Origin: Paramacrobiotus metropolitanus
Lineage: Eukaryota > Tardigrada > Eutardigrada > Parachela > Macrobiotidae
Length of the DNA stretch: 64,000 nt
Reading direction: 5' to 3'
Assembly (NCBI RefSeq): GCF_019649055.1
Contig: NW_026570320.1
Coordinates: 310,001 to 374,000, forward strand
Positions within the stretch are counted from its first letter, which is position 1; every line of letters starts with the position of its first letter. Made by a program: the position numbers and the translations under genes. This document shows positions 308 to 62,017 of this stretch, in pieces. The notes under the pieces were generated by a model, which was given only the letters and a program-made list of their open reading frames with translations, was not told the origin of the DNA and ran no database searches.

Positions 308-2831
308 TTAGTAGACAACAATTGTTTTGATTTCTGACCAAATCAGTGGAAAAATAACAGAACATGCTTTGGACACGATTCCTAAGGGGTACAACATAAA
401 CCTTCGCAAGGAGCGAAAAGATCGAATGTCCCGGTAATTGCAATATACGGCATAAAAGGCCACAGCAAAGAAGTGTCCTAGTAGCTTCCAAGGACTTGGG
501 TTGAGACTAGATCCAAAAATCGTTTTCAGTAATCGCAAGAATGAAAAACTGCGTCCACTGCGCATATGAAAATATGACTGTTAAGTTGAATCAAAGTATG
601 ACTCACACTGATAATAATCCAACAGGACCGGCGACACATTCCCCGCCAAGTTTGAAGTATTCGAAGCAGGCTTTCCTCAAACTGTGTAGGTATCCTGGAG
701 CAAATTATCAAAAAAGAAGCTCTGAATAATCACTGCTATTCAGAAAAAATATAACCGACCATAAATTGTTTATCAGATCACCTACTATCGCTAGCTGAAA
801 ACAGTGCGTACAACGCTTGCGCTAGTACGTTGACGACAAAGGCGTGATTGTTCTTCCGCTGCCGGTGAAAGAGAGTCTGAGCTTTACGAACGGCGTAGAC
901 ATCGGCGCAGTCCGCTACATTCCGCAGAGCGTTCCGCCACAGGATCACATCGTGCAGTCCAACGGACATCCCGCCTCCTGTCAGCGGATGTCGCATGTTA
1001 TACGCATCGCCTAGAATAATCGCACCGAGACGATAATGCGGTCGCGGCGGGAGAAATGATGAAGGCATGCTGCGAATGCGAGTACCGCTTGATACAGCAT
1101 CCAGAAACGGCTGCCGAATGTGGTCTGCAATGCGAATATGTTTCGGCTTGCCCTTAATGTTTTGCATGTTCAGCTAAGCAAAATTACTGTTCGAATAATC
1201 GCGACAACACGTTTTGGATTGTTACGCGTAAAATCATCCATTTTTTTGGTTTGTGAACAGGTTATTAACTCTCGTGACGCACTGACCAGGCAACTGCGGT
1301 GCGATTTCCGATACCATAAAGTCCGGCATATTTTTGGGTAGTTTGCCTTGAACGTCGACCAGCACTCTGGTGTGTTGTTCAGATATGCAGTAGATTAGAA
1401 CCGGTGATGGATTACCGAGAACCAGTTCAGCGTGTAAAGGCAAGTACTGGGGACATTTCTCCATCAGCAGCCCCACAAAATGTGAGGACACCTGGACATT
1501 TTCGCGTACCAGCTTCTGCCGAAATCGAGAAAAATGTCCATCGCACACGATGGTCAGTGGAGCAGTTAAACGGGATGTCTGCTCAGAATCGCGCAGTTTG
1601 TATTCGACTCCAGTAATGCGATCAGAATCCTCGGATTCCAACAGGTTAACGACATTCGCTTCGATCATTCGAATTCTAAGAATTTACCGTTATGTAATTA
1701 GCTGGATAAACCGCTTTATACAGAGTAGTTATACTCTGTAGGGACAATTTGCTTTAGAGCATACTGAGATACCTAGGCTCGTCCTGAGCTAATCCGCGCA
1801 GATTTTGGACAAACCGCCCGTGATGAAATGACCTTCCTTGTTGCTTCTGGCTGCCAAATGTCGGATAGGGTATCTCCACGTGGGCTCCGGTTTCCAGATC
1901 GTGCACCACATATCCGTTTACTATTTGCGCGTCAATGTTTTCTACACAATCTGTCGAGAGAATAAGAGAAGTGAACGACTCGTGAATAAGATATTGCATA
2001 TTTTTTTTGTTCATATAATTGTTTCTTTAAGAAAACCACGCAAAACGTTGTTAAAAAAAGCAGTTTGTTCCACATGCACAAGTTGCTGTATTATTGACCT
2101 ACTAGTAAGTACTGTACTTAATGTATTTTAGTCCTAATTAATTAATACTTTATAGGTACGAGTATATTCAGTGTTGTGTATTTATGCATCTGCCTACGTT
2201 CTGGTCAGCAGTTATTTCAGGCATTTCCACTTACTGGACAATCCCAACTGATGCAAAGCGCGCACTCCGCCAGGTTGTAAAAGTTCACCAACGATTCTGT
2301 CCGGCTCATTTAAATCCCGTTCGATAACCGTTACAAACCGGCCGTCGCGAGCCAACGCAGTCGCAACCGCAGATCCAACAACTCCCGACCCAATAACGAT
2401 AACTTCCGGTTGTTCAAGTGAATAAACATTATTGTGACGTCCTTTTCCTGTTACAAATGATTCCCGCTAAAAAAAACGAAAGCTCATGGTATATAGTGCA
2501 TCCGTCTATTGGGAAGCGACTGCCAGCAGATTGCGCAGATATTAATTTTAACATGTTATGCATAATTGACTACTTTCCACTATAATTTTAGAAATCGTTT
2601 TGAACCAGCTGCATCGCTCTTCAGCAGCAGTTAACGTTGTGCGGATGTACGTTACCTTTGGTGTTTGGCACAAATTTCAGTAAAGTTTTCGTACCAGCTG
2701 CATTAAGAGTTATATTTATCGCATACCGTTGGTTTTTTGCCCCTGCGTGCGCATGCAACACCGATATTCCACGCCAAAATTATTACCGGTGCTGTTAAAC
2801 CACATATTCCGATCAAGTTGGCGGTATCCAT
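308..2831 (-). CDS. SQLE: Squalene epoxidase (squalene monooxygenase), intact, 7 exons
   Basis: FAD-dependent monooxygenase that turns squalene into 2,3-oxidosqualene, the first oxygen-requiring step of sterol synthesis, at the ER membrane. Exons on the minus strand are 2727-2831, 2235-2466, 1773-1950, 1287-1675, 786-1124, 607-694 and 308-506. All junctions are GT-AG, phases agree, and the sum is 1530 nt (509 aa plus stop), near the usual family length. Exon 1 carries a hydrophobic N-terminal segment. The FAD fingerprint GSGVVG is near residue 61, followed by GELLQPGG, then a DG motif ([10 protein letters not shown]), [14 protein letters not shown] near residue 340, and the C-terminal membrane stretch [12 protein letters not shown] with [10 protein letters not shown]. 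The start is the first ATG before the hydrophobic segment. A truncated duplicate lies at 56127-57690. No break is seen here, so this is the probable working copy. Confidence 0.95.
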
Positions 2832-3354
2832 GAGCTTTGACTATTTTTGCAGACGGTATACCGCTAAAAGTTTTAAAATTTGCTGATGAGGACAAGATTC
2901 TGGCCTCAGGGTAAGCCTATTGTGATCATTCTATAATCAGACTAACGTCTAACAAGTTCTCTGGATCACTCCAGGCTACGTCGGAAGTTCTGACTTGATC
3001 TGTTGAAGATGATACAAACCAGTAACTTTGTTAATTTTGTAATGTAACTGACCCGCAAGGTCACGCCCTCCTGGTATGCGATTGCGCCTAACAAACCACC
3101 AGATCTTGCAAAACCAAACGAAACTTGGCTGAAATAGGCAAGCGATTTTATCAGCTGTAAATTCGTGCACATTCTGCGCGAATGCAAAGTCTAGCCAGAT
3201 TTCCGGACTCGTGAGGGCAAAGTCGGAACATCAGACGATTAACAAAACTGACCAGTTACTAAATTAGTGGAACAAGACAAAACAATGAGGCCACCAAAAT
3301 AACCCGAAAGCAAAATTTATTACTCTGCAGAGTTGCCAAACAGCTAAAAATAAA
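1258..3354. repeat. Segmental duplication copy A, first part
   Basis: Nearly identical to 56098-58210 in the same orientation. It starts 29 bases inside intron 4 of squalene epoxidase and runs past the start codon through the shared upstream region. It breaks off after TAAAAATAAA, where copy B continues with 45 bases that copy A lacks before resuming at 22511. The stretch 2832-3354 is the squalene epoxidase upstream region and probably holds its promoter; I see no distinct motif there. Confidence 0.9.
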
Positions 3355-4759
3355 CTAGGGAAGTGCACCGCTTTAGACTAGCACTATCAGACCGAAGCGA
3401 AGCCGGAAACTGAGTTCTGTACAAAAAATACTTCATCGTTTGTTTGGTAGTCACAATCACACCTGCAGAATCATCCTGTCTTGTTCTCCTTGTTGACCTC
3501 CCTGTTGACCCTACCGCCTTTCGTTTGAATACCTTTATTGTCTTTTTAAAAAGGAATTCAAGAATCGGCATAGTCGGTAATGCCAGTAAACGTGACCTTT
3601 ACGTTTTCCTATAAATTATTAATAATTCTTAATCCGTGAACTACTGTTATCAATGAATAAAATCTATATTACAACTACAAAAAAAGCTTTAGCTGCAATA
3701 TCGAGATCGGAAAAACCAAAACCTAATAAAAAAGATTAGATTCAGCATCTTCAGAAACTGTCACGTGCATTTTCTTACAAAAATCTTTTAAATCGTCCCT
3801 CCGATGCCGATTCCGGCAAAACTGGCTTCGCTAAAGCTTTCTTGAGAATAACAGCAGTGCCAGTTGCTTAAAACATTTATTAAAGTATTAAGTAGTACTA
3901 ATAAAGTACTATATAAATTTGTAATTATTTTATTTGCAAACGGGTTGAATTTAAACAATCGGCTTGCTCTAAATCAACAATGTCAAACGCCTAATAAGAA
4001 AAATTTGATTTCGAAGTTCGTTTGAATTTCAGTTAAACCAAGGTTTCGAAGGGATGGCTTGCATCGCTATCAAAACTGAAAACACCTGCTACCGGATTCA
4101 CGAGAATTAAATGTTCGAAGTATCAGATATTTTGCTTCTTCGATCGCCAAACACGGTCATTAGAATGTCGCACTTCTTTACAGTAGAAAAAAACAAAAAC
4201 AATTTTTAGCACGGAGTTCATTGAAGTTCCAGTTTTTGTTTCTTGGACATCCTTCGAAAGTTCGAAACCACCCATTGTTTAAAAATAAGCCCGAAAAAAT
4301 CAAACCTTTCTTATCTATTGCTCTTTCGAATAAACATGCCAATCAGGCGCTGGATAGACCCACAGCGCCTTAGCAATGCCAGAGGGCCATTTTGTTCAGC
4401 AACCGGGAAGAATTATAGCATCTATGTACTGGGTGGCTGAACAAAATGGCCTTCTCGTTCATCATGGTGTGCTGGATCCTGCCAAAGCCTGATTAACGTC
4501 ATATTAGTTTCATTGGAAAGAGCAAATTTTGCAGCATACAAAAGGAAAGTCATATGGACGTTAAAGAAAAGTTTGACGGTGTTATAAATTGTTTTTAAAA
4601 ATAGGGTAGGGTCGAAACCTGGCCCGGAAGCAAAAACCCGAGTAAACCTAATTCTAACTAAAAATTGCTATGATTGAACTAAATAATTTACTGTACGTCA
4701 AATTGCTACTTCGGATAGAGGGGTTGTTTCTGGTTTTTTTGCTGTAAAGAGCTGCGATA
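3355..4759. other. Inserted sequence of unknown origin
   Basis: First part of the 19.2-kb insertion that splits copy A. It is AT-rich and I recognise no gene. Its one clear structure is the hairpin at 4385-4451. Confidence 0.5.
4385..4451. repeat. Hairpin: 16-bp perfect inverted repeat
   Basis: GGCCATTTTGTTCAGC at 4385-4400 is repeated in reverse complement at 4436-4451, leaving a 35-base loop. It could be a small foldback element or a structured RNA segment. No neighbouring gene explains it. Confidence 0.7.
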
Positions 4760-61380: not shown

Positions 61381-61605
61381 GTTGGGTTTAGTTTGGAATT
61401 GCCATTATCAAAGAATGTTATCACGGATCTTGAAGCTCTGATCGAAGCAGCAACATATCATCGATCATGTCATCGATTCGTCAAGCTTACGGAGAGCGCT
61501 CCTTTAGTAACAGTTTTAGTAAGCGCCTTGGCACGCCAATGTGATTCGAGATGCAGCGTCGAATGAAAATGTCGGCTTGATTCAGCAGGTAAGTAAGAAA
61601 GCTAA
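61381..61605 (+). pseudogene. Remnant of the divergent first exon, copy B
   Basis: The 3' half of the exon at 25835-25999 is kept (IRDAASNENVGLIQQ and its GTAAGTAAG donor, near 61545-61600). The start codon and first part are missing, and the join reads GAGCGCTCCTTTAGTAAC. The divergent gene is therefore not startable here as in copy A, while the ferroportin side of the shared promoter survives. Confidence 0.75.
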
Positions 61606-62017
61606 GCTGTCTGGCATTTGCAGATGTCCTTATTTGACTGCACAGGAATGTAAACAAACTACGTATGCGTAGGCATAGTGCCTGGCACCGCGTAGTAATT
61701 TCATTGACTACCAAAAATTTCATTGGATCCTGAAAGCTGTCACCTTGAGCGGTTGCCAATTTTTTTACTTTCGAGGCCACTATCCCAACACTGCTTTTGT
61801 ATGATAATAATTTTAGTTTTGAAAACTATAGAATCATATCACGTACATAGGTATTTAAGATTTACAAGCTGCTGCATCCAGCATAATTGAGCAACTAAGG
61901 CGAACATTTTTCAATGGCTCGTTTTTTTCTTAAAATTAATTAAATTTCAGACATATAATGTTCTTGCAATTAGACACTGTAGTGATTACCTACTGTACTT
62001 AAATCGTTAAGATGCTT

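Follow-up and report, generated by a model that had tools for sequence, protein, structure and literature searches.

A squalene epoxidase-ferroportin segment present twice at one tardigrade locus, with probable relocation of the open ferroportin gene by duplication and loss

We examined a 64,000-nucleotide stretch of the tardigrade Paramacrobiotus metropolitanus (contig NW_026570320.1 of RefSeq assembly GCF_019649055.1, positions 310,001 to 374,000 of the forward strand; below, the window, with positions counted from its first letter), which holds squalene epoxidase (SQLE) and ferroportin (FPN), both on the minus strand and with SQLE downstream of FPN. By self-BLAST, a 5.9-kb unit, spanning the sequence between SQLE intron 4 and a point about 0.6 kb upstream of FPN, is present twice, and all matches between the copies are direct, as an initial annotation of the sequence had stated. 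Copy B is compact (56098-62017) and copy A is spread over 1258-41949, in the following pieces, which carry no assigned strand:

56098..62017: unit copy B, without large insertions (self-BLAST and edge alignment)
1258..3354: copy A piece equivalent to B 56098-58210 (92.9%, E 0.0), with its left edge inside SQLE intron 4 (self-BLAST)
22511..25762: copy A piece equivalent to B 58256-61499 (95.8%, E 0.0; self-BLAST)
25950-26016: small copy A piece equivalent to B 61538-61605 (short match)
31106..31219: small copy A piece equivalent to B 61598-61703 (short match)
41588..41949: final copy A piece, carrying the right edge of the duplication; 41588-41899 matches B 61695-61994 (88.9%, E 3e-103; self-BLAST)

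No match joins A 25763-25949 to B 61500-61537, and identity ends on the right at A 41949 and B 62017. The copies are homologous at the DNA level, introns included. They are not a simple tandem, with adjacent copies joined right end to left end, because 41949 and 56098 are separated by about 14.1 kb, in which other gene sequence lies. The gene models within and across the unit are as follows:

308..2831, minus strand: SQLE copy A, seven exons, 526 codons open (gene model and Pfam)
2727-2831, 2235-2466, 1773-1950, 1287-1675, 786-1124, 607-694 and 308-557, minus strand: exons of SQLE copy A
56127..57690, minus strand: SQLE copy B, limited to exons 1-4, with exon 4 short of 11 bases
58559..61380, minus strand: FPN copy B, seven exons, 669 codons open (gene model and Pfam)
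60909-61380, 60763-60836, 60309-60468, 59948-60108, 59792-59861, 58955-59693 and 58559-58892, minus strand: exons of FPN copy B
22815..25643, minus strand: FPN copy A, a pseudogene (TAG codon, 7-base loss, 6-base gain; splice dinucleotides kept)

The intact SQLE is that of copy A, as had been annotated, with 526 codons in our model in place of the 509 first given; its introns are all GT-AG, and the SE (316.1 bits) and FAD_binding_3 (51.4 bits) domains lie together in the one protein. SQLE-B starts 29 bases past exon 4, within intron 4, and lacks exons 5-7; its exon 4 is also without 11 bases (equivalent to A 1381-1391), a further lesion that the initial annotation had not listed. Since homology in B stops before exons 5-7, SQLE could have survived only in A, and the opposite survival of the two genes, which is no symmetric pattern, reduces to the single, ordinary loss of one FPN copy out of two complete ones, FPN being the only gene whose outcome was open. 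On the same ground, that B homology ends ahead of these exons, we rejected complementary or selected survival.

FPN is open in copy B, as first described: its seven exons, joined by GT-AG introns throughout, give 2010 nt including the stop and 669 amino acids, and the protein matches the FPN1 family over profile positions 6-430 of 430 (447.5 bits), i.e., the full domain. The first domain residue is number 172 of 669; about 170 residues precede it as an N-terminal extension (60763-61380, minus strand). In FPN-A, both lesions that had been described are present: TAG replaces CAG at codon 99 (25347-25349) and exon 4 (24203-24362) has lost 7 bases beside 24213, in addition to an in-frame gain of 6 bases at 24326-24331. 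One copy is thus disabled by nonsense and frameshift and the other is intact, and FPN-B is the only candidate source of ferroportin predicted within the 64-kb window. The remains of FPN-A are still recognizable, the exon-6 open reading frame (ORF) scoring 218.9 bits in B and 211.3 bits in A against the FPN1 profile and exon 7 scoring 75.8 bits in both. At the four residues differing between A and B that fall inside an alignment with human ferroportin, B is, in our judgement of closeness, nearer to the human protein in all four, two of them exactly.

Synonymous divergence between the copies (0.057 for SQLE exons 1-4, 0.059 for FPN) is close to noncoding divergence (5.77% on the SQLE side, 6.20% in the FPN introns) for both gene pairs. 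The SQLE pair shows 13 nonsynonymous and 12 synonymous changes over 297 codons (4 gapped codons dropped), and the FPN pair 24, the nonsense change included, and 27 over 667 codons (3 dropped), with a ratio of nonsynonymous to synonymous rates (dN/dS) of 0.34 (95% limits 0.14-0.80) for SQLE and 0.27 (0.15-0.48) for FPN. The FPN copies were listed as differing at 46 codons. The FPN value exceeds that expected with both copies constrained (0.1; P 0.0003) and lies under that expected with one copy unconstrained from its origin (0.5; P 0.026). FPN-A seems, accordingly to these rates, to have decayed during only part of the time since duplication; as a rough figure it would have been free for 0.3-0.5 of that time, the limits running from 0 to 0.9 according to how strong a constraint is taken. 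A period of constraint, together with the retained splice dinucleotides, is also what a shortened or alternatively spliced FPN-A that is still expressed would show, in which case there would have been no relocation. We regard this as very improbable, given the in-frame TAG at codon 99, with no later in-frame ATG in exons 1 and 2 by our reading, and the frameshift in exon 4.

Three insertions (19,156, 5,089 and 10,368 bases by BLAST edges), none of them in B, separate the pieces of copy A:

3355..22510, no assigned strand: composite insertion of 19,156 bases, opposite about 45 bases at the B site, holding a Ty3-like long terminal repeat (LTR) element
6008-22337: Ty3-like LTR element, about 16 kb (LTR 6008-6311; second LTR 20579-22337; pol ORFs 10799-14419, minus strand)
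20742..22188, no assigned strand: 1447-base insert in the second LTR, presumably hAT-like, with an 8-base target duplication (GTGTGCGC) and inverted ends (CAGTGTTGGCCCGTTT)
26017..31105, no assigned strand: insertion of about 5.1 kb, missing from B, related to 37140-41587
31220..41587, no assigned strand: insertion of about 10.4 kb, missing from B, with a 9-base target duplication (GTAATTTCA)
31954-33657, minus strand: reverse-transcriptase ORF inside the 10.4-kb insertion

The sequence GTAATTTCA flanks the 10.4-kb insert at 31211 and 41588 and stands singly at the matching place in B (61695), which therefore represents the empty site; it occurs once elsewhere, at 59752. Target duplications are clear only for this insert and the one in the LTR, and no clean ones were seen for the 19-kb composite or the 5.1-kb insertion. 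The Ty3-like element has short LTRs of 304 bases, which differ at 5 of 304 sites (95% limits 0.54-3.8%); since this is 0.27 of the A-B noncoding divergence, the element, the only insertion dated, entered after the duplication. It also carries 191-base tandem repeats at 7516-8579. The elements at 26017-31105 and 37140-41587 are related: their pieces are 84-94% alike where matched at length, their first 47 bases are identical, both have 79-base tandem repeats and their host insertion sites lie about 100 bases apart in B coordinates. The reverse transcriptase at 31954-33657 has no relatives among solved structures at E 0.001, and no RNA families or tRNAs were found. Mobile elements missing from B thus stand on either side of FPN-A, and they account for much of the separation of the gene pair: the 55 kb first reported holds as a distance (55,728 bases from the SQLE-A start to the FPN-B stop), of which about 34.6 kb consists of the insertions within copy A and 14.1 kb lies between the copies.

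Provided that the assembly is right, the two intact-gene outcomes are an ordinary duplicate-and-lose history. We consider it probable, from the sequence, that a DNA duplication was followed by loss of FPN-A, the working exporter being relocated by duplication and loss with A most likely as the parent. Under this reading, a DNA-level event on a locus that we take to be correctly assembled would have copied the 5.9-kb stretch in direct orientation, and the fewest steps are needed if the copied segment was placed downstream of A. As the copied stretch took in only SQLE exons 1-4, SQLE-B would never have been functional and SQLE would have stayed beside its last three exons. Both FPN copies would at first have been complete, the reading frame of FPN-A being lost later while FPN-B stayed open, and mobile elements would have entered copy A around FPN-A, the LTR element after the duplication. 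The suggestion that FPN moved after its parent had decayed thus has the order reversed: the duplication comes first and the loss of FPN-A afterwards.

The direction of copying is read from the edges. On the left, copy A continues into SQLE exons 5-7 and is for this reason native there. That B starts inside SQLE is accurate, the edge falling in intron 4; the argument that B is hence derived used this single edge, and it is insufficient because, after an event of the tandem type too, one copy would be native at its left side and the other at its right. From the left edge together with simplicity, we somewhat favor A as parental and B as the new locus. Of the interpretation first offered, the direct duplication, the only open FPN beside a truncated SQLE and the native SQLE edge of A all stand, and the status of B as the daughter is likely, if unproven. 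The right edge was considered through these features:

41952..42282, plus strand: coding-like sequence starting from the right edge of A, with one frame change (codon score)
25835..25999, plus strand: possible exon 1 of a candidate gene X, with 55 open codons and a GTAAGT donor, arranged head-to-head with FPN; its start is missing in B

A possible bidirectional promoter is noted at 25835-25999 and 61500-61591: in A the open X exon points away from FPN, and in B the start of this exon and part of the common upstream region are gone. Of 95 stop-free noncoding controls, 14 matched or beat the codon score of X exon 1, which is not above controls, and 0 did so for the 41952-42282 stretch (in both frames), the Notchless piece described below and SQLE exon 4; the choice of the stretches by eye flatters these scores. 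X (25835-25999) is without a match in PDB (E up to 10) or a family in Pfam (E up to 5). For 41952-42236, Pfam likewise gave nothing at E up to 5, and the PDB hits all lie at E 1.3-2; joined to X, this stretch again matches nothing in Pfam (E up to 10) and draws a single PDB hit, at E 1.1. The attempt to polarize the right edge by naming its neighbors accordingly failed, X and the 41952 stretch having given no convincing family.

Beyond the edges, the right flank of A carries at 42700-44280 (minus strand) an incomplete and broken fragment of the ribosome-assembly gene Notchless (NLE1). All 99 residues given match human Notchless (227.6 bits), and the top of the table (286.9 bits) is 2ymu, a repeat-rich WD40 protein for which no individual stretch passes by itself; by our reading of the frames, the C-terminal part of the piece is missing and its frame is interrupted. 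It suggests further partial duplications in the genome. An apparent small gene at 47125-55612 (plus strand; first exon uncertain) ends about 490 bases ahead of copy B and encodes, by our reading, a coiled coil as well as a membrane segment at the C terminus; its Pfam matches are weak, mostly to coiled-coil types, and all 13 of 13 fall below the cut-offs. In the right flank of B, 63412-63910 (plus strand) is the start of a trans-1,2-dihydrobenzene-1,2-diol dehydrogenase gene (63.5 bits to 2o48). The Pfam scan of the flanks covered all six frames of 41952-46900 and 62018-64000, one frame of 46900-51900, three frames of 51900-56097 and two of 3400-6000.

Several observations count against relocation from A to B. 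The right edge (41949 / 62017) gives no clear polarity, neither flank being demonstrably ancestral there, and the coding-like stretch at 41952 opens at the very edge of A with no in-frame splice acceptor seen, which fits a broken, non-native flank. Such a flank would be expected of a complex tandem duplication, in which the native flanks are split, the left one staying with A and the right one with B, and the 14.1 kb arrived at the junction; FPN-B would then never have moved and would have kept its own upstream region, each gene surviving in full native surroundings. The Notchless piece, broken and incomplete, which makes the right flank of A look assembled from fragments, and the dehydrogenase gene start to which the right flank of B leads, point the same way. 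We hold this history to be possible though doubtful: it requires a block of about 14.1 kb, including the seemingly complete small gene at 47.1-55.6 kb, to fall exactly at the junction, and X may run on the same strand into the right flank of A, where we read a possible phase-0 acceptor about 35 bases in, a continuation that would make that flank native. Also unfavorable to relocation as we date it is that the SQLE and FPN dN/dS values are indistinguishable (Fisher P 0.81) though SQLE-B was truncated from the outset, and the timing of FPN-A's death is loose for this reason.

A last point of this kind concerns the uneven identity of the copies. Noncoding differences range from 0 to 26 per 100 sites and are heterogeneous (chi2 158.7, 27 df). 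The longest identical run, 377 aligned sites in and beside SQLE exon 4 (gap columns skipped), was reached in 1 of 2000 class-wise permutations, and there are 9 identical runs of at least 110 sites (permuted mean 3.9, maximum 10); because these permutations ignore real variation in mutation rate and the 9 long runs lie within the permuted maximum of 10, homogenization is only suggested. Some stretches may have been homogenized between A and B, and such exchange would explain the mosaic; uneven mutation or recombining haplotypes would explain it too. Haplotypes raise the further prospect that A and B are divergent versions of one locus wrongly joined in one contig, as the noncoding divergence of about 6%, the mosaic identity and the presence or absence of insertions are also possible for haplotypes of a highly polymorphic species. 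False haplotype duplications, marked by half coverage and gaps, are reported in PMC9516828 to have affected 4 to 16% of the older assemblies examined. We judge an artefact of this kind unlikely here: the 64,000 bases contain zero N, with no gap between the copies; among the matches listed at E up to 1e-3, none joins 41950-56097 to 62018-64000 or 1-1257 to 41950-56097; and the misjoin would have to fall precisely at the left edge of B, with at least 14 kb of further difference between the haplotypes on the right.

Relocation of FPN by duplication and loss, as we prefer to read the locus, is a new instance of a known process, for gene relocation by DNA-based duplication and loss of the original copy is so named in PMC5463336. 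As there, introns are kept in the duplicate, one copy is lost and the working gene is at a new place; unlike there, the move covers only tens of kb without a change of strand, with the decayed copy still visible and the direction unproven. The transposition of JYalpha in Drosophila (PMC8261240) is alike in that the working gene is off its former place and crosses with the unmoved form could lack the gene. It is unlike in that JYalpha differs between chromosomes, whereas the copies here are linked, and recombinants lacking both FPN copies would be rare because of this linkage. Compared with the unprocessed pseudogenes of PMC1484586, SQLE-B is an incomplete duplicate, in which decay is expected from its formation, and FPN-A a decayed complete duplicate; what sets the otherwise ordinary locus apart is that a single unit holds two genes whose outcomes are opposite. 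A literature search with ferroportin as a term returned only unrelated papers.

For gene catalogues, neither SQLE-B nor FPN-A should be annotated as intact. The locus also carries a warning, as "reciprocal" survival of linked duplicates can come merely from the position of a breakpoint. In one place it displays how a gene can come to change position, through partial copying, a non-working truncated passenger, decay of one of two full copies and mobile elements in the decaying copy. That the sole working ferroportin of the animal was moved by a recent local duplication, the old copy, flanked by mobile elements, having decayed, is a bolder claim to which we would give little credence at present. 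If it is true, and if both arrangements persist in the species or in a sister species, crosses could yield recombinants without ferroportin.

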